Below, piece after piece: positions 9,096 through 17,707 of a stretch of DNA of 42,767 nucleotides; position 1 is the first letter of the stretch, and every line of letters starts with the position of its first letter. This stretch comes from Devosia sp. (GTDB taxonomy: Bacteria; Pseudomonadota; Alphaproteobacteria; Rhizobiales; Devosiaceae). Under the pieces are notes generated by a model. It was not told where the DNA came from, searched no databases, and was given only the letters and a program-made list of their open reading frames with translations. Made by a program: the position numbers and the translations under genes. The stretch covers positions 1 to 42,767 of the forward strand of contig NZ_JAQGJV010000005.1 of assembly GCF_028290435.1 (NCBI RefSeq), given 5' to 3'.

Positions 9096-9947
9096 TTAAG
9101 CCGAATACGCCTTGGTCAACTGACGCTGTTCGCCCAGGCCCTCGATGCCCAAACGCATGACATTGCCGGGCTTGAGCCAGACCGGGTTCGGCTTGATCCC
9201 CATGCCGACGCCCGGAGGGGTGCCGGTGGAGATGATGTCGCCGGGCTGCAGGCTCATGAACTGGCTAACATAGGCCACCACGGTGGCGACGCCGAAGATC
9301 ATCGTCTTGGTGGAGCCGTTCTGGTAGCGGTGACCGTCGACCTCGAGCCACATCGACAGGTTCTGCGGGTCGGCGACTTCGTCCTTGGTCACCATCCAGG
9401 GGCCGATGGGGCCAAAGGTGTCGCTGCCTTTGCCCTTGTCCCAGGTGCCGCCGCGCTCGGTCTGGAAATGACGCTCGGAAACGTCGTTGATGACGCAATA
9501 GCCGGCGACATGGTTCATGGCGTCGGCTTCCTCGACGTAGCGGGCTTCCGTGCCGATAATGATGCCGAGTTCGACTTCCCAATCGGGCTTGATGGAGTTC
9601 TTGGGGATGATCACATCGTCATTGGGGCCGATGATGGCGCTGGTAGCCTTCATGAAGATGATCGGCTCTTCGGGGATGGCGGCGCCGGTTTCGGCGGCGT
9701 GGTCGGCATAGTTGAGGCCGATGCAGATGAACTTGCCCACATTGGCGACGCAGGGACCGATGCGGTCATTGGCATCGAGCTTGGGCAGCACGCCGATGTC
9801 CACGGCACGGATCTTGGCCAGGCCTTCGGGCGTCAGCGTATCGCCGCCGATGTCGCCCACAATGCCGCTGAGATCACGGATAGTGCCATCGGCATCCAGA
9901 ATGGCGGGCTTCTCAGCGCCCTTGGCGCCAACGCGGAGGAGTTTCAT
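9096..9947 (-). CDS. FAH-family hydrolase, probable 2,4-diketo-3-deoxy-L-fuconate hydrolase
   Basis: A 283-residue fumarylacetoacetate hydrolase-family enzyme. KFICIGLNYADHAAE opens the catalytic domain; PDWEVELGIIIG and CVINDVSERHFQ supply the Glu, Glu and Asp metal ligands; the C-terminus carries GDIISTGTPPGVGMG. Close relatives cleave 2,4-diketo-3-deoxy-L-fuconate or -rhamnonate to pyruvate and L-lactate. Here that assignment is supported by fucU upstream and by lldD sharing the same operator. Ureidoglycolate lyase-type annotations are less likely in this context. A palindromic operator (9984-9997) lies between a predicted -35 and -10, giving a leader of about 22 bases. Substrate specificity is inference. 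Confidence 0.88.
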   Translation of the reverse strand: MKLLRVGAKGAEKPAILDADGTIRDLSGIVGDIGGDTLTPEGLAKIRAVDIGVLPKLDANDRIGPCVANVGKFICIGLNYADHAAETGAAIPEEPIIFMKATSAIIGPNDDVIIPKNSIKPDWEVELGIIIGTEARYVEEADAMNHVAGYCVINDVSERHFQTERGGTWDKGKGSDTFGPIGPWMVTKDEVADPQNLSMWLEVDGHRYQNGSTKTMIFGVATVVAYVSQFMSLQPGDIISTGTPPGVGMGIKPNPVWLKPGNVMRLGIEGLGEQRQLTKAYSA

Positions 9948-9975: not shown

Positions 9976-10004
9976 GCAATAAAGCTAACATGTTAGCCTG
10001 TCGA
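9976..10004 (-). promoter_or_regulatory. predicted promoter of the FAH gene
   Basis: On the minus strand TCGACA (9999-10004) is followed after exactly 17 bases by TATTGC (9976-9981). The operator palindrome fills the spacer. Transcription would begin near 9969, about 22 bases before the ATG. The predicted promoter of lldD has the same layout. Confidence 0.5.
9984..9997. promoter_or_regulatory. GntR operator copy 1 (FAH gene)
   Basis: GCTAACATGTTAGC is a perfect 14-base palindrome in the fucU-FAH gap. The same 12-base core occurs at 11244-11255 and 16297-16310. The symmetric pattern suits a FadR/FCD-type GntR dimer, and such a regulator is encoded at 10493. Binding there would occlude the predicted promoter. 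Confidence 0.8.
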
Positions 10005-10039
10005 GGCCGACCAAAGGCCAATCGGTTCGGCTGGGCGAA

Positions 10040-10471
10040 TTATTGCGGGCGGATAATGCCCTTCTTGAGCAGGATATTGCCATAGAGCCGACGCTCGCCG
10101 GTCTGCACGATGGCGTAGCCGGTCTTGACCCGCTCATAAAAGGCGAAGCGTTCCAGCGACGACACGCCCATCTTGGGTTCGTGCTTTTTGACGATGGCTT
10201 CGAACTCATCGACCACGGGCGGACGCGCGCCGGCGTCGCCCACCACCTGCATGACAATGGCGGCCTCATCGACGAAATCGTCGAGCGGCATCAGCGTCAG
10301 GACGGCCTCAAGGACATCGGTGGCGCTGATGCCATCGAGGCGCACCAGGGCCGGCCCGGCCGCATCGGCGGGATAGTTGGCATCGACGATGGCGATTTCG
10401 TCGCCATGGCCCATGGCGCGCAGAATGCCGAGCAGGTCGGGGCCGAGCAGTGGCGGAATATTTTTGAGCAT
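10040..10471 (-). CDS. fucU: L-fucose mutarotase (RbsD/FucU family)
   Basis: A 143-residue cytosolic enzyme that interconverts the alpha and beta anomers of L-fucose. It follows the FucU pattern closely: MLKNIPPLLGPDLLGILRAM then GHGDEIAIVDANYPA at the start, and RFAFYERVKTGYAIVQTGER then YGNILLKKG at the end, with the catalytic His in GHGDE and the Tyr in the C-terminal YGN motif. It lies 21 bases downstream of gntR on the same strand, with a GGGAGGGG ribosome site, and is probably co-transcribed with gntR. It is the strongest single pointer that the locus handles L-fucose or a stereochemically similar sugar. Confidence 0.93.
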   Translation of the reverse strand: MLKNIPPLLGPDLLGILRAMGHGDEIAIVDANYPADAAGPALVRLDGISATDVLEAVLTLMPLDDFVDEAAIVMQVVGDAGARPPVVDEFEAIVKKHEPKMGVSSLERFAFYERVKTGYAIVQTGERRLYGNILLKKGIIRPQ

Positions 10472-10492
10472 TTTGGGTCCCCTCCCAGGGAT

Positions 10493-11242
10493 TTAGCCGA
10501 ATGGAAAACTGTCGCTGTCGCTACCAAGGGTATCGCCGTCGGCAAAGACCTTGGGGTCGTCGCGCGCAAAGGCGAACAGCTCGACCATGACCGCGTCAAT
10601 ATGGGCGCGGATGGCCCTGGTGGCCTGGGCCTGGTCCGCCGCCAGAATACCGTCGAAAATCGCCTGATGCTCGGCGATGGTGATGGCCAGCCGACGCGGC
10701 GTGATGATCAGCCGGCGGGCGCGATCGAGATTGGCGCGGGCGCTGTCGATGATGTTCTTGATCTTGGTGAATTTCATCGAGCGGAAGATGATGTCGTGGA
10801 ATTCCAGATCGATCTGGTGAAACGCCTCGGCATCGTCGCGACTGGCGGCCTCGCGCTGGGCCGCCATATTGGCATGCAGCGCCTCGATAACCTCGGCGTC
10901 ATGCTTGCCGATCAGCACGCGCAGGGCCTCGCTTTCGATGCCTTTGCGGATCAGCATATATTCGCGCACGTCGGCAATGCGCACCAGCGACACGGTCGAG
11001 CCGCGCTGCGGTGCGATATCGACCAGCCCCTCCGCCTGCAGCCGCGCCAGCGCTTCGCTGACCGGAAAGCGGGAGACGCCGAGCTGCTCGCAGATGGCGG
11101 TCTTGTCGATGCTCTGACCCGGCGCCAGCGCCAGGGTGACGATGGCCTGGCGCAGTGCCGCGGTCACGTCAAGCGTGACGCTGCCGCGCGACAAAGCCGT
11201 GGGGCGGGCGAGAAAACGATAGGGACTTGCTTCCATAGTCAT
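10493..11242 (-). CDS. GntR-family transcriptional regulator, FCD (FadR) subfamily
   Basis: A 249-residue repressor-type protein. The N-terminal winged helix spans about residues 20-85 (ALAPGQSIDKTAICEQLGVS, then FPVSEALARLQAEGLV). The C-terminal all-helical FCD ligand domain contains DLEFHDIIFRS and ITIAEHQAIFDGIL, which carry the Asp/His residues that often bind a metal and a carboxylated ligand. It is likely to sense an aldonate or keto-deoxy sugar acid. The start codon sits two bases from operator copy 2, and no ribosome site exists in between. With a predicted -10 at 11249-11254 the transcript would begin at or beside the ATG, so this looks leaderless and autoregulated. ATG 11236 is the alternative start. 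Confidence 0.92.
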   Translation of the reverse strand: MTMEASPYRFLARPTALSRGSVTLDVTAALRQAIVTLALAPGQSIDKTAICEQLGVSRFPVSEALARLQAEGLVDIAPQRGSTVSLVRIADVREYMLIRKGIESEALRVLIGKHDAEVIEALHANMAAQREAASRDDAEAFHQIDLEFHDIIFRSMKFTKIKNIIDSARANLDRARRLIITPRRLAITIAEHQAIFDGILAADQAQATRAIRAHIDAVMVELFAFARDDPKVFADGDTLGSDSDSFPFG

Positions 11243-11243
11243 G

Positions 11244-11255
11244 CTAACATGTTAG
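11244..11255. promoter_or_regulatory. GntR operator copy 2 (gntR/uxaA-type divergent gap)
   Basis: CTAACATGTTAG, a 12-base perfect palindrome flanked by G and T, so it matches the consensus RCTAACATGTTAGY of all three copies. It ends two bases before the gntR start and overlaps that gene's predicted -10. It also precedes the dehydratase gene on the other strand, so one site could control both directions. Confidence 0.8.
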
Positions 11256-11277
11256 TTAGACCCGTGGCGATTTACAA
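11249..11277 (-). promoter_or_regulatory. predicted leaderless promoter of gntR
   Basis: On the minus strand TTGTAA (11272-11277), 17 bases, then TAACAT (11249-11254). The expected start site seven bases on is the A of the gntR ATG at 11242. The -10 lies inside the operator, which would give direct negative autoregulation. Confidence 0.45.
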
Positions 11278-11378
11278 CACGATTGAAGCCGGCGGCCCGC
11301 ACTTCAGGGTGCCTATGTGGCCGGTATTGAGCGTGCGGTAAAGCCTTGGCAGCAGCAGCATCCGAAAGTTCACACCCC

Positions 11379-12929
11379 ATGTCGCAAACCATGATCCGCC
11401 CCGAAACCAGAACCCTGGTGCTGAATCCGGCCGACAATATCGCCGTGGCTTTGGCCAATCTCGATGCCGGTACCGAGACGCCGCAGGGCCGGATCGTCGC
11501 CAAGCGGGTGCCCAAGGGCCACAAATTCACCGTGCGCCCGGTGCGGGCGGGCGAGGCCATCGTCAAGTTCGGCCAGATCATCGGTTTTGCCAGCGTGGAT
11601 ATCGCGGCGGGCGAGTGGGTGCACGAGCATAATTGCGGCATGGGCGGCGCCGATGGCAGCCTCAAGCACGACTATGCCTTTTCCGAAGGCGCCGTTGCGC
11701 CCGACATGGTGCCGCTCGACCAGCGCGCCACCTTCGAGGGTTATCGCCGCGCCAACGGCTCGGTGGGCACCCGCAATTATGTGGGCATCCTGACCTCGGT
11801 GAACTGCTCGGCAACGGTCGCCAAGTTCATCGCCGAAGGCATCAACCGTTCGGGTATTCTGGATGATTATCCCGAAATCGACGGCGTCGTGCCGTTCGTG
11901 CATGGCACCGGCTGCGGCATGGAATCGCGCGGCGAGGGTTTTGACATCCTCAAGCGCACGCAGTGGGGCTACACGTCCAATCCCAATCTGGGCGCCGCAA
12001 TGCTGGTGGGCCTGGGCTGCGAAGTGTTCCAGATCGGCCGCATGAAGGAAATGTACGGCATCACCGAGAGCGACACCTTCCAGACCATGACCATTCAGGA
12101 AAGCGGTGGCACCAAGAAGATCGTGGAATGGGGCATCGAGCGCATGAAGGAAATGCTGCCCGTGGCCGCCAAGGCGCGGCGCGAAACCATCGATGCGTCC
12201 GAACTGGTGCTGGCGCTGCAATGCGGTGGCTCGGACGGCTATTCGGGCATCACCGCCAATCCGGCGCTCGGCTATGCGGCCGATATCCTGGTGCGTAATG
12301 GCGGCACCGCGATCCTCAGCGAAACGCCGGAAATCTACGGCGCCGAGCATCTGCTGACGCGCCGCGCTGTGTCGCGCGAAGTCGGGGAAAAGCTCCTCAG
12401 CCGCATCCACTGGTGGGAAGACTATACCCAGCGCAATCATGGCGAGATGAACAACAATCCCTCGCCGGGCAACAAGCTGGGCGGGCTGACCACGATTCTC
12501 GAAAAATCGCTCGGCGCCACTGCCAAGGGCGGCACCACGCCGCTGACGGCGGTCTACGAATACGCGGAGAAGGTGCGCGAAAAGGGCTTTGTGTTCATGG
12601 ACACGCCCGGCTTCGATCCGGTCTCGGCGACGGGGCAGGTGGCGGGCGGCGCCAACATTCTGGCCTTCACCACCGGGCGCGGTTCGGCCTATGGCTGCAA
12701 GCCGGTGCCCTCGGTGAAGCTGGCGACCAATTCGGACATGTACAACCGCATGACCGGCGATATGGACATCAATTGCGGCGACATCGTCGAGGGCGTGTCG
12801 ATCGAGGACAAAGGCCAGGAAATCTTCGACCTGCTGCTGCGCGTCGCCTCGGGCGAGCCGACCAAGTCGGAAGCTCTGGGCTATGGCGACAACGAATTCG
12901 TGCCGTGGCAGGTCGGCGCGACGATGTAG
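11379..12929 (+). CDS. UxaA/GarD-family sugar-acid dehydratase
   Basis: A 516-residue dehydratase of the altronate/galactarate dehydratase family, which removes water from aldonates or aldarates to give 2-keto-3-deoxy acids. Order: N-terminal SAF-type domain (about 10-95, with VPKGHKFTVRPVRAGE and VHEHNCGMGG), then the UxaA catalytic region with RANGSVGTRNYVGILTSVNC, FVHGTGCGMESRGEG, LVGLGCEVFQIG, LALQCGGSDGYSGITANPA and AFTTGRGSAYGCKPVPSVKL. The multiple conserved Cys/His are as expected for a metal-dependent family. Its neighbours fucU and the FAH hydrolase suggest L-fuconate as substrate; galactarate and D-altronate are the classical alternatives. The ATG at 11379 is the likeliest start, though the ribosome site is weak. 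Confidence 0.9.
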   Translation: MSQTMIRPETRTLVLNPADNIAVALANLDAGTETPQGRIVAKRVPKGHKFTVRPVRAGEAIVKFGQIIGFASVDIAAGEWVHEHNCGMGGADGSLKHDYAFSEGAVAPDMVPLDQRATFEGYRRANGSVGTRNYVGILTSVNCSATVAKFIAEGINRSGILDDYPEIDGVVPFVHGTGCGMESRGEGFDILKRTQWGYTSNPNLGAAMLVGLGCEVFQIGRMKEMYGITESDTFQTMTIQESGGTKKIVEWGIERMKEMLPVAAKARRETIDASELVLALQCGGSDGYSGITANPALGYAADILVRNGGTAILSETPEIYGAEHLLTRRAVSREVGEKLLSRIHWWEDYTQRNHGEMNNNPSPGNKLGGLTTILEKSLGATAKGGTTPLTAVYEYAEKVREKGFVFMDTPGFDPVSATGQVAGGANILAFTTGRGSAYGCKPVPSVKLATNSDMYNRMTGDMDINCGDIVEGVSIEDKGQEIFDLLLRVASGEPTKSEALGYGDNEFVPWQVGATM

Positions 12930-12945
12930 GCTTTCGACGCCCAAA

Positions 12946-12984
12946 CCGGCCGCCGCTTGACAAGGCGGCCGGGCTCCCTATTTT
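12946..12984 (+). terminator. intrinsic terminator of the UxaA-family gene
   Basis: CCGGCCGCC (12946-12954) and GGCGGCCGG (12964-12972) form a perfect nine-base stem with a nine-base loop, starting 16 bases after the stop codon and followed by CTCCCTATTTT. The tail is only partly U-rich, so efficiency is uncertain. Confidence 0.7.
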
Positions 12985-13028
12985 AAAGCCATGAACGCTT
13001 TTGCGATGCACCTGCAGGATTTTGCACG

Positions 13029-13199
13029 CCGGGAACACCCGGTCGCAGGCGCACGTCCCTAGACCTGAGCTGACGTCAAGCCGGGTTTAGGGTGGTTCTC
13101 CAGCGTTTTGAACGCTGCTCATAGCGGTTTGTCCGCTCAGACGAATTCACAACAATCAACATTCTGCAAGCCAGCGCGGCCAAGACCGCTGCGGCTTGC
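13029..13199 (+). promoter_or_regulatory. multi-hairpin leader upstream of rnk
   Basis: Four stem-loops are strung along the 288-base gap before rnk. They are 13029-13042 (CCGGG-AACA-CCCGG), 13101-13117 (CAGCGTT-TTG-AACGCTG), 13123-13137 (AGCGG-TTTGT-CCGCT) and 13166-13199, a 13-pair stem with two single bulges (outer arms GCAAGCC and GGCTTGC). The last ends six bases before the AAGGA ribosome site of rnk, so it could gate translation. A 23-codon frame at 12991-13062 has no ribosome site and is not called. The region could be a 5' UTR regulatory element or a separate small RNA. Confidence 0.5.
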
Positions 13200-13217
13200 C
13201 ATCTAAGGACTATCATC

Positions 13218-13616
13218 ATGCCAAGCATGAACTCTGTCACCCTGCGCCCCAAACTCGTGGTCGGCGAGGGTGATCACCGCAAGCTCATCGCACTTGCGCT
13301 GGCCGGTATCGGCCACACCTCCGACGCAGGGGACGACCTGCTCTACGAACTCGAGCGCGCCCGCGTCGTCAGCGACGCCAAGCTGAGCGGCGCCGTCGTG
13401 CGCATGGGCTCGCGCGTCACCTATCGTCCCGATAACGGCGACGACCGCACGGTCACGCTGGTCTATCCCATCGATGCCGATATTTCGGCCGGCCGGATTT
13501 CCGTGCTCACCCCCGTGGGCACCGCCTTGATCGGGCTGACCAAGGGCCAATCGATCACCTGGAACGCCCGCAATGGCCAGCGCCATGTGCTGACCGTGCT
13601 GGAGGTGGAGGGCTAA
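13218..13616 (+). CDS. rnk: Rnk, regulator of nucleoside diphosphate kinase (GreA/GreB C-terminal fold)
   Basis: A 132-residue cytosolic protein with the Rnk architecture: a short helical N-terminus (LVVGEGDHRKLIALAL, then ELERARVV) and a C-terminal GreA/GreB-like FKBP fold (VVRMGSRVTYR, VTLVYPIDADISAGRISVLT, PVGTALIGLTKGQSITW). Rnk binds RNA polymerase and affects nucleotide pools and stress responses in enterics and pseudomonads; its role in alphaproteobacteria is less clear. Start 13218 has AAGGA at 13205-13209. The TAA stop interlocks with the TAG stop of the opposite histidine kinase gene (CTAA, 13613-13616). The long structured leader before it is notable. Confidence 0.93.
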   Translation: MPSMNSVTLRPKLVVGEGDHRKLIALALAGIGHTSDAGDDLLYELERARVVSDAKLSGAVVRMGSRVTYRPDNGDDRTVTLVYPIDADISAGRISVLTPVGTALIGLTKGQSITWNARNGQRHVLTVLEVEG

Positions 13617-14698
13617 GTTTCGGGCGCCGCGTCGGCACGGGCGAAGAAAATCGACACCTTCATGCCCAGGCCGGGCGCTGAGGTGACGTCGATTTTGGCG
13701 TGAGCATTCTGCTCCAGCGAATGCACGATCAGCGCGCTGAGCTTGCCCGGCTTGGGCCAGTGAACCCCTTCGGCCAGGCCCACGCCGTCGTCCGATATGG
13801 TCACGAGGCACCCCGTCTCGTCGACTAGGCTGTGCAGCTTGATGGTGCCACCGTCGCTGCCGACGAAGGCGTATTTCAGCGCATTGGTCAGCAGCTCGTT
13901 GACCACAAGGCCCGTCGGCATGGCGACGTTGACCGAGACCGGCCAGGTATCGACCTGCAGGTTGAGCCGGATGCCTTCCACGGCATGGGCCGCCATCACG
14001 GCGGACGCGACCTGGCTGAGATAGACGCCCAGATCGACGCTATCGCCTAGATTTTCTTCGGTCAGCGATTGGTATAACAGGCCGAGCGAGCTCACCCTGC
14101 CGGCCAGGCGTCCGAAAGCCTCGCCGGTAGCGCCTTCGGGCATGTTGCGCGCTTCCAGCCGGATCAGCGCGGTGATCATCTGCAAATTGTTTTTGACCCG
14201 GTGCTGCAGTTCGCGCAGCAGCGTGTCCTTTTCGCCCAGCTGGCGCTTGATGTCGGTACTCTCGGCTGATGCGGACGCCAGCGTTTGCGCCAGTGCCACC
14301 AGGCGGAACATGGGCGTGCCGTCATCGGCCTCGATGATGTTGGACCAGGCGTCGACGCTATGTGTTTCCGCGTCCAGCGCGATGGTGAATGCCCCCAGAT
14401 AGTCGTCCTGCTCGGTGATGACGCGGTTGAGCGGCTGTCCGTCGGCCGCGCTGACCGCGGTGGTGGGCAGGGCATCCCAACCCTTGCCCTGCAACTGCGA
14501 CGCTGTGCGGCCAATCAGCCGTTCGAACTCCACATTGGCATAAGTCAGCCGTTCCGTCGGGCGCAATTCGGCGACCGCGATGCCGAACGGCACGTGATCG
14601 AGAAATTGCTTGAAGCGATCGCTCTCCAGCGCGTCCGACAGGTTTGCTGTGTCCAGCAACTCTTCGACCTGAGTGCCATTGCTGTCTTGGGTTGCCAA
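13613..14698 (-). CDS. soluble PAS histidine kinase, HisKA_2/HWE-like
   Basis: A 361-residue cytoplasmic sensor kinase with no membrane segment. A PAS-type domain spans about residues 28-145 (FLDHVPFGIAVAELRPTERL). The phosphoacceptor segment is LLRELQHRVKNNLQMITAL, with His166, in the form typical of the HisKA_2 family common in Hyphomicrobiales. The ATPase domain follows, with VVNELLTNALKYAF (N box) and ISDDGVGL (G1 box). Such kinases often feed the PhyR/EcfG general stress response or light signalling. No response regulator is adjacent, so the partner is unknown. The PAS domain lacks the NCRFLQ motif of LOV photosensors. Confidence 0.93.
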   Translation of the reverse strand: MATQDSNGTQVEELLDTANLSDALESDRFKQFLDHVPFGIAVAELRPTERLTYANVEFERLIGRTASQLQGKGWDALPTTAVSAADGQPLNRVITEQDDYLGAFTIALDAETHSVDAWSNIIEADDGTPMFRLVALAQTLASASAESTDIKRQLGEKDTLLRELQHRVKNNLQMITALIRLEARNMPEGATGEAFGRLAGRVSSLGLLYQSLTEENLGDSVDLGVYLSQVASAVMAAHAVEGIRLNLQVDTWPVSVNVAMPTGLVVNELLTNALKYAFVGSDGGTIKLHSLVDETGCLVTISDDGVGLAEGVHWPKPGKLSALIVHSLEQNAHAKIDVTSAPGLGMKVSIFFARADAAPET

Positions 14699-14767
14699 TG
14701 CGTGTCCTAATCCGGGTTACGAGGGATCACCCCTAGCACAGAATGGCGCCGTTCTAGGGCAGTTCCA

Positions 14768-15688
14768 TTAGGGCCGCTGCAACCCCGTCGCCCCGACATA
14801 AAGCGAATAAACGTATTGGCTGGAGGTGATGAACAGCCGGTTCCGCCGTGCGCCCCCAAAGGTGAGGTTGGAGGTGGATTGGCCGGTCTTGATCCGGCCG
14901 AGCAAGGCACCAGCCGGGTTGTAGACATTCACGCAAGGACCGGCGCTGGTCCAGATATTGCCTTCGGTATCGAGCCGGAAGCCGTCGGGCAGGCCGGTAT
15001 CGACATCCACATAGGTGCGCCCATTGGTCAGCGTCTTGCCGTTCACGACATCGAATTGCCGGATATGGGCGGGCCAGTCGGGATCGTGGCTGCGGCCGGT
15101 ATCGGCGATGTAGAGCACGCTTTCGTCGGCCGAAAACGCCAGCCCGTTCGGCTTGGCAAAATCGTCGACGACTACCGCCAGCGAACCATCGGCTGGATCG
15201 AAGCGGAAGACGTTGCAGTGTTCCTGTTCCTGGTCGGCCTTGTAGCCCTCATAGTCAGACAAAATCCCATACGGCGGATCGGTGAACCAGATTGTGCCAT
15301 CGGACTTGACCACTACGTCATTGGGGGAATTGAGGCGCTTGCCCCGGTAGCTGTCGACGAGCGTCGTCACCGTGCCATCGGGCTCAGTGCGCAGCACCGC
15401 ACGAGCACCATGCGAGCAGGAGATCAGGCGGCCTTCACGGTCGCGAGTGTGACCATTGGTGTAGTTGGCGGGGCTGCGGAAAGTGGACACTCCAAGATCG
15501 GGCGTCCAGCGCAGGATGCGGTTATTGGGAATGTCGGACCACAGCAAATAGCCGCCATCGTTGAACCAGACCGGCCCCTCGGCCCAGCGGCAGCCGTCGT
15601 AGAGCGTCTCCATCGGCGCGTTGCCCTGCACCAACTCATAGAATTTCTTGTCGATATATTCGATGTTTTCGCCCGCCAGCAGTGCCAT
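14768..15688 (-). CDS. SMP-30/gluconolactonase-family lactonase
   Basis: A 306-residue six-bladed beta-propeller hydrolase. CRWAEGPVWFNDGGYLLWSD supplies the first metal Glu, RLNSPNDVVVKSDGTIWFTD the conserved Asn-Asp, and LPDGFRLDTEGNIWTSAG the late metal Asp. Family members open sugar lactones such as gluconolactone with a divalent metal. Lying between the UxaA-family dehydratase and lldD, it may supply the aldonate by hydrolysing the lactone made by a sugar dehydrogenase, but it has no copy of the GntR operator, so membership of that regulon is unproven. The ATG at 15688 is chosen because AAGGGAGA lies about eight bases upstream and the residues encoded further upstream are not family-like. 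Confidence 0.9.
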   Translation of the reverse strand: MALLAGENIEYIDKKFYELVQGNAPMETLYDGCRWAEGPVWFNDGGYLLWSDIPNNRILRWTPDLGVSTFRSPANYTNGHTRDREGRLISCSHGARAVLRTEPDGTVTTLVDSYRGKRLNSPNDVVVKSDGTIWFTDPPYGILSDYEGYKADQEQEHCNVFRFDPADGSLAVVVDDFAKPNGLAFSADESVLYIADTGRSHDPDWPAHIRQFDVVNGKTLTNGRTYVDVDTGLPDGFRLDTEGNIWTSAGPCVNVYNPAGALLGRIKTGQSTSNLTFGGARRNRLFITSSQYVYSLYVGATGLQRP

Positions 15689-15801
15689 GTTCGTGGTCTC
15701 CCTTTGGGCGGCATTTGAGGCAAGAGGGCGGGCGCGCGCAAGGTGGGTTGGCGCGGAATTTTGTGGAGCGGCGTCCCACGGCCCATGCATCTCGGCCAAC
15801 C

Positions 15802-15950
15802 GTCACCCCCTCCCAGCCTCCCCCATCAAGGGGGAGGTGCCTCTCCACTCTGGGGGCGCGATTGGGTTCAAGCCGCCGCTATTGGAACTCGATGCAGTTC
15901 AACCCACCGGCAGACACCTCCCCCTTGATGGGGGAGGCAGGGAGGGGGTG
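15802..15950. repeat. palindromic intergenic repeat, copy R1
   Basis: Outer arms CACCCCCTCCC (about 15804-15814) and GGGAGGGGGTG (15940-15950) enclose two inner hairpins built on CCTCCCCCATCAAGGGGGAGG-type arms, around a spacer ending in GATGCAGTTCAACCCACCGG. The same elements recur at 32990-33097 and 41335-41451. This copy has the longest spacer, with an extra segment of about 40 bases. It lies between the divergent lactonase and lldD genes. Confidence 0.85.
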
Positions 15951-16290
15951 CCGTTTAGCCCCGATCTCTCCCACTTACCCATCTAATCCTCACCCCCTCC
16001 ACCCCGCTGCATAATCATCCCCGATATCTCCACAATGGCTGCGGGGTTCGCGACGAACGGCCGTGGGGAGTTTGGTGGGAGGGGAATGCGGTCGCGCGAT
16101 CCCTGGGCCAGCGCGACGTTCGTTCCTCACTTCAAGAGGGGCCACGTTCGGGCGGCCAGAAACCCCATCGCATGCGGCGAGGCGCTGTCTCGCTTATCTA
16201 CAAAACCATGAGGCACGTCTCGCCGCATGCCGCAGTCTTTCCACCGCAGGGCTTTCGCCCGGGCGGCACGCAGCCATGCTCAGTGCCGCA
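15951..16290. other. gene-free upstream region of lldD
   Basis: This stretch has no frame with family character. It holds a pyrimidine-rich segment just after repeat R1 and a perfect 12-base inverted repeat (16170-16181 and 16219-16230, 37-base spacer). The lldD promoter and operator start at 16291. Otherwise I see nothing recognisable. Confidence 0.6.
16170..16230. repeat. 12-base inverted repeat upstream of lldD
   Basis: GCATGCGGCGAG (16170-16181) is the exact reverse complement of CTCGCCGCATGC (16219-16230), with 37 bases between. It lies about 60 bases upstream of the lldD -35. It may form a hairpin or cruciform, or provide two distal half-sites for a regulator. Confidence 0.5.
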
Positions 16291-16319
16291 TTGACGACTA
16301 ACATGTTAGTTGCTAGGGC
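16291..16319 (+). promoter_or_regulatory. lldD: predicted lldD promoter
   Basis: TTGACG (16291-16296), 17 bases, then TAGGGC (16314-16319). The palindromic operator fills the spacer exactly. Initiation near 16326 would leave a leader of about 16 bases that still contains the GGGAG ribosome site at 16331-16335. The -10 is weak. Confidence 0.55.
16297..16310. promoter_or_regulatory. GntR operator copy 3 (lldD)
   Basis: ACTAACATGTTAGT, a perfect 14-base palindrome with the same 12-base core as copies 1 and 2. Placed between the -35 and -10 of lldD, it would block polymerase when bound. It links lactate oxidation to the sugar-acid genes 5 kb away. Confidence 0.8.
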
Positions 16320-16341: not shown

Positions 16342-17529
16342 ATGGCCGCACTCGACAAAATCCTCACCGTCGCCGAAATGAAAACGGCCGCTCACCGGCG
16401 CGTGCCCAAGATGTTCTTCGAATATGCCGATAGCGGCAGCTATACCGAAAGCACCTATCGAGAAAACGAGAGCGATTTTGCCAAGATCAAGCTGAAGCAG
16501 AAGGTGGCCGTCAACCTCGAGGGCCGCAATCTCAAGACCACGATGCTGGGCAAGCCCATCACCATGCCGGTCGCCATCGCGCCGGCCGCGACGGGCGGCA
16601 TGCAGGTGGCCGATGGCGAGATCAAGGCCGCCAAGGCCGCCGAGAAATTCGGCATTCCCTTCGCGCTTTCGACCATGAGCGTCTGCTCGATCGAGGACAT
16701 CGCCGAAAACACCACGGCGCCGTTCTGGTTCCAGCTCTATGTGATGCGCGACCGCGGCTTCATCGAGCGCATGATCGACCGCGCCAAGGCGGCCAAGTGC
16801 TCGGCGCTGGTGCTGACCATGGATTTGCAGATCCTGGGTCAGCGCCACAAGGACATCCATAACGGGCTCTCCACCCCGCCCAAATTCAATGCCTATTCGA
16901 TCTGGCAGATGATGCAGCATCCGGCGTGGTGCATGCGCATGCTCGGCACCAAGCGGCATACCTTTCGCAACATCGTCGGCCATGTGAGCGGCGATCACGA
17001 CCTGGCCTCGCTGTCGGCCTGGACCGCCAGCCAGTTCGACCTCACGCTCAATTGGGGCGATATCGCCTGGGTCAAGAAGCGCTTTGGCGGCCCGGTCATC
17101 GTCAAGGGCGTGCTCGATCCGGAAGACGCGCTGGCCGCGGTGAACAATGGTGCGGACGCCGTGATCGTCTCCAATCATGGCGGTCGCCAGCTCGACGGCG
17201 CCCCCTCGACCATCCGCGTGCTTCCCGAGATCATCGACGCCATCGGCAACAAGACCGAAGTGTATCTCGATAGCGGCATCCGCTCGGGTCAGGACGTGCT
17301 CAAGGCCATGGCCTACGGCGCCAAGGGAACCTTTATCGGCCGCCCCATGCTCTACGGCCTGGGCGCTGGCGGCGAAGCTGGCGTCACCCGCGTGCTCGAT
17401 ATCATCCGCAAGGAACTCGACACCACCATGGCGCTGTGCGGCGAACGCGACATCCTCAATGTTGGGCTGCACAATATTTATTCCAACGATATTCCAAAGC
17501 GGAACTCGCCGCTGGGGGCGAAGGGGTAG
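16342..17529 (+). CDS. lldD: FMN-dependent L-lactate dehydrogenase / alpha-hydroxy-acid oxidising protein
   Basis: A 395-residue flavoenzyme that oxidises L-lactate to pyruvate, passing electrons to the respiratory chain in LldD-type members. The family signature SNHGGRQLDGAPST lies around residue 278, with the catalytic histidine at about 279. IAPAATGGMQVADGE and ALSTMSVCSIEDIA form the early FMN pocket, and YLDSGIRSGQDVLKAMAYGA with FIGRPMLYGL binds the phosphate. The ATG at 16342 has GGGAG six bases away. A shared operator with the FAH gene suggests it consumes the L-lactate released by fuconate cleavage. Glycolate- or mandelate-type substrates remain possible. Confidence 0.92.
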   Translation: MAALDKILTVAEMKTAAHRRVPKMFFEYADSGSYTESTYRENESDFAKIKLKQKVAVNLEGRNLKTTMLGKPITMPVAIAPAATGGMQVADGEIKAAKAAEKFGIPFALSTMSVCSIEDIAENTTAPFWFQLYVMRDRGFIERMIDRAKAAKCSALVLTMDLQILGQRHKDIHNGLSTPPKFNAYSIWQMMQHPAWCMRMLGTKRHTFRNIVGHVSGDHDLASLSAWTASQFDLTLNWGDIAWVKKRFGGPVIVKGVLDPEDALAAVNNGADAVIVSNHGGRQLDGAPSTIRVLPEIIDAIGNKTEVYLDSGIRSGQDVLKAMAYGAKGTFIGRPMLYGLGAGGEAGVTRVLDIIRKELDTTMALCGERDILNVGLHNIYSNDIPKRNSPLGAKG

Positions 17530-17540
17530 GGGCACCTCTT

Positions 17541-17680
17541 TTCTTCTCCCCATCGGGGAGAAGGTGGCGCGTAGCGCCGGATGAGGGGGTGCGTTGGGTT
17601 GCTCAGAGGGCTGGGTTCGCGGCGACATTCCCCCTCACCCGTCTTGCTCCGCAAGCCGACCTCTCCCCGATGGGGAGAGG
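17541..17680. repeat. clustered-hairpin intergenic repeat R4, between convergent genes
   Basis: Four perfect hairpins in 140 bases: CTTCTCCCC-ATC-GGGGAGAAG (17543-17563), GGCGC-GTA-GCGCC (about 17566-17578), CTTGC-TCC-GCAAG (about 17643-17655) and CCTCTCCCC-GAT-GGGGAGAGG (17660-17680). The sequence differs from repeats R1-R3, though the architecture is similar. It separates the lldD stop from the anti-sigma stop and could act as a bidirectional terminator. Confidence 0.75.
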
Positions 17681-17707
17681 AAAAGGAAGCAGCAGGCGTA
17701 GCGTCAC

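Follow-up and report, generated by a model that had tools for sequence, protein, structure and literature searches.

We describe a set of dispersed genes in Devosia that have a 12-base palindrome, CTAACATGTTAG, at their promoters and that very probably form a single regulon under an FCD-type GntR regulator. The stretch analyzed is 42,767 nucleotides of Devosia sp. DNA (assembly GCF_028290435.1, contig NZ_JAQGJV010000005.1, positions 1 to 42,767; hereafter the window), whose genus was assigned from its named relatives. As read from sequence, the members are the divergent pair gntR/uxaA, the L-lactate dehydrogenase gene lldD, the D-lactate-dehydrogenase-type gene dldII, an aldo/keto reductase gene and an FGGY kinase gene, with control exerted by the adjoining GntR protein through predicted binding to the palindrome. 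A wider interpretation, to which we give an even chance, is that a compact oxidative fucose/D-arabinose cluster, of the kind relatives still have, was dispersed with each piece retaining the 12-bp GntR palindrome, and that its regulator became a genus-wide hydroxy-acid switch, which would fire L-lactate and D-lactate/glycolate oxidases together with the sugar pathway making those acids. The genes and palindromes in the window are as follows.

9096..9947, minus strand: fah (PF01557), predicted 2,4-diketo-3-deoxy-L-fuconate/rhamnonate hydrolase, which would yield pyruvate and L-lactate
9985..9996: operator 1, exact CTAACATGTTAG between fucU and fah, 37 nucleotides upstream of fah
10040..10471, minus strand: fucU, an RbsD/FucU protein (PF05025), predicted L-fucose-type mutarotase
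10493..11242, minus strand: gntR, a GntR protein with an FCD domain (PF07729 and PF00392), predicted palindrome binder and autorepressor
11244..11255: operator 2, exact, common to the divergent gntR and uxaA, 1 nucleotide from the gntR start codon
11379..12929, plus strand: uxaA, a UxaA/GarD-type dehydratase (PF20629, PF04295, PF08666), predicted L-fuconate/D-arabinonate dehydratase
16298..16309: operator 3, exact, 32 nucleotides upstream of lldD
16342..17529, plus strand: lldD, flavin mononucleotide-dependent L-lactate dehydrogenase (PF01070)

Palindrome copies in the window, the genome and the genus

A preliminary description of the window had reported the palindrome at three positions, just upstream of fah, gntR/uxaA and lldD respectively, and a scan of the window recovered all three (9985-9996, 11244-11255 and 16298-16309). 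Their outer letters are G..C, G..T and A..T, so that RCTAACATGTTAGY fits every site. The accompanying statement that no other copy exists holds within the window, where no further CTAACATGTTAG was found at up to two mismatches (0.26 copies expected; shuffle maximum 2; three reached in 0 of 100 shuffles), but not in the genome. The whole 4.58 Mb contains four exact copies, against a base-composition expectation of 0.06, and three more with one mismatch. The fourth exact copy lies on contig C38, 10 nucleotides upstream of dldII, which encodes a 972-amino-acid oxidase of the flavin adenine dinucleotide plus iron-sulfur type, and the one-mismatch copies lie upstream of the aldo/keto reductase gene (C24), the FGGY kinase gene (C72) and a LysR gene (C40). 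At up to one mismatch this amounts to seven palindrome matches versus one for a backwards control pattern. With dldII, the reductase and the kinase on other contigs, the regulon is not the local one first supposed. The LysR-side copy (L007:6273) was left out of the target count; it reads CTAACATGTCAG, 6 nucleotides upstream of the LysR gene, and the gene beside it has, as judged by eye, a start resembling that of a pyrroloquinoline quinone-type dehydrogenase. In the nearest genome, G003, CTAACATGTCAG occurs as a single copy, at the kinase.

When the exact-match search was extended to relatives, as had been proposed, CTAACATGTTAG was present in 60 of 61 Devosia genomes (own included), with 233 copies in total compared to one for the backwards control. 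A site before a target gene was counted at up to two mismatches, except that the gntR site was counted as exact. On this basis, every lldD ortholog carries an upstream site (56 of 56; 55 exact, one with one mismatch), as does every dldII ortholog (57 of 57; 45 exact, 12 with one mismatch), 13 of the latter being counted by site and gene coordinates (six exact, seven with one mismatch). The reductase has a site in 50 of 51 testable cases, comprising 47 CTAACATGTCAG-like one-mismatch sites and three two-mismatch sites, two of which are the perfect palindrome CTGACATGTCAG, and the kinase in 52 of 56 (18 exact, 32 with one mismatch, two with two). Dropped before counting were a second lldD-like row of G025, the reductase rows of G036:C42, G060 and G056 (which runs off its contig), and the kinase rows of G059:C133 and G060; with the paralog rows restored, the counts become 50/53 for the reductase and 52/58 for the kinase. 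The kinase is a constant member of the regulon, and no obvious partner aldolase or isomerase adjoins it in the loci viewed (L196-L225).

The regulator gene itself is present in 58 of the 61 genomes at E <= 1e-30, and its site is exact in all 55 genomes tested, G014, G051 and G021 being the three outside that test. Among 49 named Devosia-type loci the gntR site is exact in each, 1 nucleotide from the start codon in 48 and 33 nucleotides away in one. Across the genus uxaA adjoins gntR. The position of lldD, in turn, shifts: it can share a contig with gntR at distances of up to about 20 kb, or lie megabases away (G016, G057). The palindrome has stayed with gntR/uxaA, lldD and the other targets although lldD moved, in line with the earlier proposal that L-lactate oxidation is co-regulated with sugar-acid breakdown. 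Of the three sites first described, those at gntR/uxaA and lldD are constant, but at fah only 26 of the 49 named loci have an exact site, and six more have one with a single mismatch.

Many unrelated copies, which the preliminary description had named as grounds for refutation, were not found. In 18 genomes whose copies were fully listed, 71 of 74 exact copies stand at recognized target promoters (gntR/uxaA, fah, lldD, dldII, the kinase and, once, a short-chain dehydrogenase/reductase, SDR, gene); the other three are L124:4120 (genome G047), L132:4525 and L133:4409. These counts bear on whether the palindromes could be chance matches or a functionless repeat element, a possibility we regard as practically eliminated by the genus counts and by shuffled palindromes. 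Inverted repeats resembling repetitive extragenic palindromic elements do flank lldD (window positions 15789-15965 and 17538-17685, with 54- and 31-nucleotide arms, 87% complementary), as a repeat origin might lead one to expect. Yet the palindrome occurs only zero to six times per genome, nearly always at the same targets, and its surroundings diverge: the 12 palindrome letters are 94-100% identical between loci, and the 12-letter flanks of dldII, the reductase and the kinase are 27-60% identical. The flanks of lldD (31-91%) and gntR (64-79%) are better kept because promoter or coding letters lie there. Across 150 upstream regions, the best-scoring 30 loci per gene, the palindrome is exact in 101 and within one mismatch in 147, whereas 59 shuffled half-site palindromes gave no exact match in the same regions and at most one within one mismatch.

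The regulator, its promoters and its relatives

The protein encoded beside operator 2 had been called a FadR-type GntR, and both domains score above their cut-offs (PF00392, 54.4 bits; PF07729, 72.5 bits). The motifs DLEFH, EHQAIF and AHI of the FCD domain align in this protein and five linked homologs. They contain what we take to be the metal/carboxylate pocket motif of FCD domains, D-x3-H, H, H, and the conserved D, H, H and H residues fit a carboxylate ligand. Canonical LldR was rejected as an identity for the protein, which reaches only 26.6 bits on model NF007741 against a cut-off of 311. The GntR helix usually has an arginine in the sequence V-R-E-A, which is replaced here; the idea that this loss explains the operator is weakened by the g218 paralogs, which have the same change and no site.

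Two of the operators overlap predicted core promoters.

11249..11254, minus strand: predicted -10 element of gntR, TAACAT, inside operator 2
11272..11277, minus strand: predicted -35 element of gntR, TTGTAA, spacer 17
16291..16319, plus strand: predicted lldD core promoter, TTGACG-N17-TAGGGC, spacer filled by operator 3

At 27 of 49 gntR loci the best-scoring promoter-like placement puts the -10 element within the palindrome. The spacer-filling arrangement scores best in 18 of 30 lldD loci, and for fah a -35-like box 8 nucleotides before the palindrome does so in no fewer than 23 of 32. Such overlap with core promoters fits repression, which is the habit of FCD-type GntR proteins. Site position and family habit make repression, relieved by an acid of the pathway, more likely than activation. 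A GntR dimer on the palindrome would overlap the predicted gntR -10 element, fill the -35/-10 spacer of lldD and block RNA polymerase; with TAACAT as its -10 element, the gntR transcript would be leaderless, and lldD transcription would begin 6-8 nucleotides past TAGGGC. A pathway carboxylate (L-fuconate, 2-keto-3-deoxy-L-fuconate or L-lactate) might then bind the D-H-H-H pocket and cause release from DNA. The genes so released would be those for the sugar dehydrogenase, mutarotase, dehydratase and FAH hydrolase of a non-phosphorylating (route 3) fucose pathway, together with lldD. LldD would convert L-lactate to pyruvate, and the other hydroxy acid would fall to the D-lactate/glycolate-type oxidase.

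Beyond Devosia, the regulator is found at E <= 1e-40 in 97 of 121 genomes of the family. Other genera account for 37 of these regulators; 24 of the loci, spread over seven genera, lie next to uxaA, fucU or fah, and all 24 have an exact palindrome; uxaA itself is the neighbor in 23, the 24th ending at a contig edge. None of the 13 unlinked paralog loci (g218) has a uxaA, fucU or fah neighbor or a palindrome within two mismatches. Of 240 genomes sampled evenly from the class, ours and two others, both of one genus, are the only ones to reach E <= 1e-40. In these two, uxaA is followed by the site, gntR and the reductase; one has the exact palindrome and the other has CTAACATGCTAG. Each of them, like the Rhodobacteraceae strain KLH11, has a single copy within one mismatch per genome; since matches to the backwards control numbered 2, 0 and 6 in the three genomes, these single copies carry weight by their position and not by their number. 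KLH11 has a compact cluster of ABC genes, uxaA, the site, gntR, reductase and fucU, continuing with an amidohydrolase, a second FAA-hydrolase-family gene, an aldehyde dehydrogenase, an SDR and fah. The second FAA-hydrolase-family gene and the aldehyde dehydrogenase (L275:9944-12632) are what a D-arabinose route to 2-oxoglutarate would call for. The cluster of Octadecabacter B2R22, like KLH11 a Rhodobacterales-type relative, resembles that of KLH11, with operator CTAACATGTCAG. In the Burkholderiales genera Caballeronia and Paraburkholderia, a GntR 43-45% identical to ours adjoins an L-fuconate dehydratase gene, and the palindrome standing between the two is CTAGCATGCTAG and, for Paraburkholderia, CTAGCATGTTAG.

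Of 20 regions taken from the family's other genera, ten contained lldD, and in five of those an operator stood upstream of it. Three of these five have two or three tandem palindromes spaced 19 bp apart, in a unit that repeats the palindrome and TTGACC, and two of the five lldD operators are CTGACATGTCAG.

L475:15185, 15204 and 15223; L476:5619 and 5638; L472:17337 and 17356: tandem palindromes before lldD in the sister genus g214

Taken with the Devosia counts, control of lldD is thus constant in Devosia, patchy in the sister genus and unseen in the class relatives. Palindromes without a recognized target were also seen in other genera at L462:7245, L467:7246, L471:3861, L474:17919 and L468:1116; the first three are exact, and the L462 and L467 copies have flanking letters in common. 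We envisage a compact operator-bearing sugar cluster, kept in relatives, that was dispersed in Devosia, each piece keeping or gaining the operator, with lldD, dldII and the kinase recruited in that genus.

Pathway, substrate and competing explanations

The best solved relative of the fah product is an L-2,4-diketo-3-deoxyrhamnonate hydrolase (8gsr, E 5.6e-100), and this nearest hydrolase, LRA6, uses the same route 3 intermediate (PMC11199699, available part). That route leads from fuconate to 2-keto-3-deoxyfuconate, then by C4 oxidation and hydrolysis to pyruvate and L-lactate (PMC11199699, same part). According to the available part of PMC6336799, these enzymes form glycolate when D-arabinose is the starting sugar and lactate when acting on 2-keto-3-deoxyfuconate, which offers a reason for placing L-lactate and GlcD-like oxidases in one regulon. 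The assignment of lldD is backed by NF008398 (418.5 bits, above the cut-off of 376), with 370.1 bits on the stricter exception model NF033901, below its cut-off of 550. For dldII no named model was above cut-off, the best being GlcD (166.1 of 567.9 bits) and YdiJ (164.2 of 1350); its close relatives are publicly annotated as 'D-lactate dehydrogenase', an annotation that does not itself amount to a test. The reductase (PF00248), which is fucose/galactose-dehydrogenase-like, has L-galactose dehydrogenases as its nearest solved relatives (99.5 bits), and for the kinase the nearest is 3h6e, a nameless FGGY kinase. The interval from uxaA to lldD holds a GreA/GreB-C-type gene, a HisKA_2 kinase gene and an SMP-30-type gene. 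In G301, of another genus, a one-mismatch site (L464:14712) is shared by an SMP-30-type gene, similar to the one in the window, and an aldehyde dehydrogenase gene divergent from it, a hint that the SMP-30-type gene of the window (14768-15691) encodes the lactonase.

A second fucose-type cluster is present on contig C12 (G000:C12, L346:1-10051). It contains an SDR, a PF04909 lactonase candidate, an IclR regulator, ABC-type genes and an enolase-type L-fuconate dehydratase, the last interrupted at the contig end. By sequence, the SDR is a candidate 2-keto-3-deoxyfuconate 4-dehydrogenase, 80% identical to the SDR of G025, the only genome in which that gene has an exact site.

Several observations weigh against the regulon as drawn. 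The C12 cluster, with the candidates for the 4-dehydrogenase and a lactonase in our genome, has no palindrome within two mismatches; the regulon thus does not span the whole pathway, and UxaA may serve another acid. All three sugar-pathway products of the window fall below their NCBIfam cut-offs: FAH has 434.6 bits on NF053535 (cut-off 500), FucU 127 bits on NF011949 (141) and UxaA 407.7 bits on TIGR03248 (730.85), so that the last is UxaA-type by family only. The reductase is without an upstream site in G033, the kinase in G007, G021, G040 and G052, and five of the ten lldD genes in the other-genus regions have no operator. The promoter-like matches are weak (7-9 letters of 12), and no constant promoter placement emerges for dldII or the kinase; the helix change in GntR does not by itself account for the operator.

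The substrate is most likely L-fucose, with D-arabinose or L-galactose as possibilities. That the same regulon serves mainly one of those two sugars, or D-arabinonate, L-galactonate or D-altronate, is a tentative but real alternative. In its favor are the second, IclR-linked cluster with its enolase-type L-fuconate dehydratase, the L-galactose dehydrogenases nearest to the reductase and the resemblance of dldII to GlcD, and a UxaA-superfamily enzyme of Herbaspirillum prefers D-arabinonate and is weak on L-fuconate (PMC6336799, in the part available). L-fucose is favored by FucU, which is nearest to the L-fucose mutarotase model, by lldD, which suits the L-lactate formed from L-fucose in route 3 (PMC11199699 and PMC6336799, available parts), and by the presence of uxaA in a Campylobacter jejuni fucose operon (PMC12566272, available part). 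It is less probable, and in our view unlikely, that the regulator is essentially a lactate/glycolate sensor to which the sugar-acid genes belong because they feed that pool. Lactate-type oxidases are indeed among the most constant targets, and three other-genus loci have double or triple operators at lldD. Outside Devosia, however, the operator-regulator pair tracks uxaA and the sugar genes in every linked locus and lldD often not; in G097, G225 and KLH11 the lone site within one mismatch per genome is at uxaA/gntR, and the low score on the LldR model points the same way.

That some other protein binds the palindrome, gntR being just one more target, seems very improbable. Binding by GntR was deduced from sequence, and the genome has many other GntR-like candidates (38 at a first look). 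Regulator and palindrome nevertheless travel together across genera and classes, 1 nucleotide from the gntR start; a variant palindrome stands beside the 43-45% identical Burkholderiales relatives; and paralogs without the pathway lack it. If control by the adjoining GntR is correct, it supplies a regulator, an operator and a function for genes that almost all the Devosia genomes examined have retained. It would also provide a clean non-canonical operator for an FCD-type GntR (CTRACATGYTAG-like), complete with natural variants and a negative-control group of paralogs, and a worked case of a pathway that remains one regulatory unit after operon break-up. Whether lactate oxidation in these soil bacteria is part of sugar breakdown or under a dedicated lactate regulator becomes testable.

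Relation to known systems

A literature search, with subscription papers and RegPrecise outside its scope, found no paper on this regulon, and a search with TAACATGTTA returned none on this subject by title. Regulation of lactate use by LldR likewise pairs an FCD-type GntR with lldD; the Devosia protein, with its low score on the LldR model, differs in operator and partner genes as well. The fucose loci of Caballeronia and Paraburkholderia have an enolase-type dehydratase, an adjoining ABC transporter and, in the stretch viewed, no lldD, but resemble ours in the related GntR divergent from a dehydratase, with palindrome CTAGCATGCTAG/CTAGCATGTTAG.

The C. jejuni fucose operon (PMC12566272) similarly combines uxaA with a short-chain dehydrogenase and a local repressor. 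It differs in being a single operon with an IclR-type FucR and a DapA-type end, and no FAH or lactate dehydrogenase is mentioned in the available part of that paper. FucR regulons of Halomonas and Rhodobacteraceae mat bacteria (PMC5507952) also have predicted sites in L-fucose/L-fuconate loci, some with uxaA; neither lldD nor L-lactate occurs in the main text, and the available part gives no family or motif for FucR. In route 3 of Herbaspirillum and others (PMC11199699, PMC6336799, in their available parts), mutarotase, sugar dehydrogenase, dehydratase, 4-dehydrogenase and FAH hydrolase lead, as proposed here, to pyruvate and L-lactate. The genes are clustered there and dispersed under one operator in Devosia, where the dehydratase is UxaA-type and the 4-dehydrogenase lies outside the regulon in this genome.

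A parallel for the lactate branch is found in the predicted RhaR regulons of certain Actinomycetales and Rhodobacterales, where lldD or lldEFG are among the members (Rodionova et al. 2013, PMC3870299, in the part available). Unlike the Devosia system, they concern rhamnose and a phosphorylating aldolase route (RhaEW), GntR does not occur in the text of that paper, and the available part names no D-lactate-type oxidase. Like it, they are deoxyhexose regulons that include L-lactate dehydrogenase, so that the joining of lactate oxidation to a deoxyhexose regulon has precedent.

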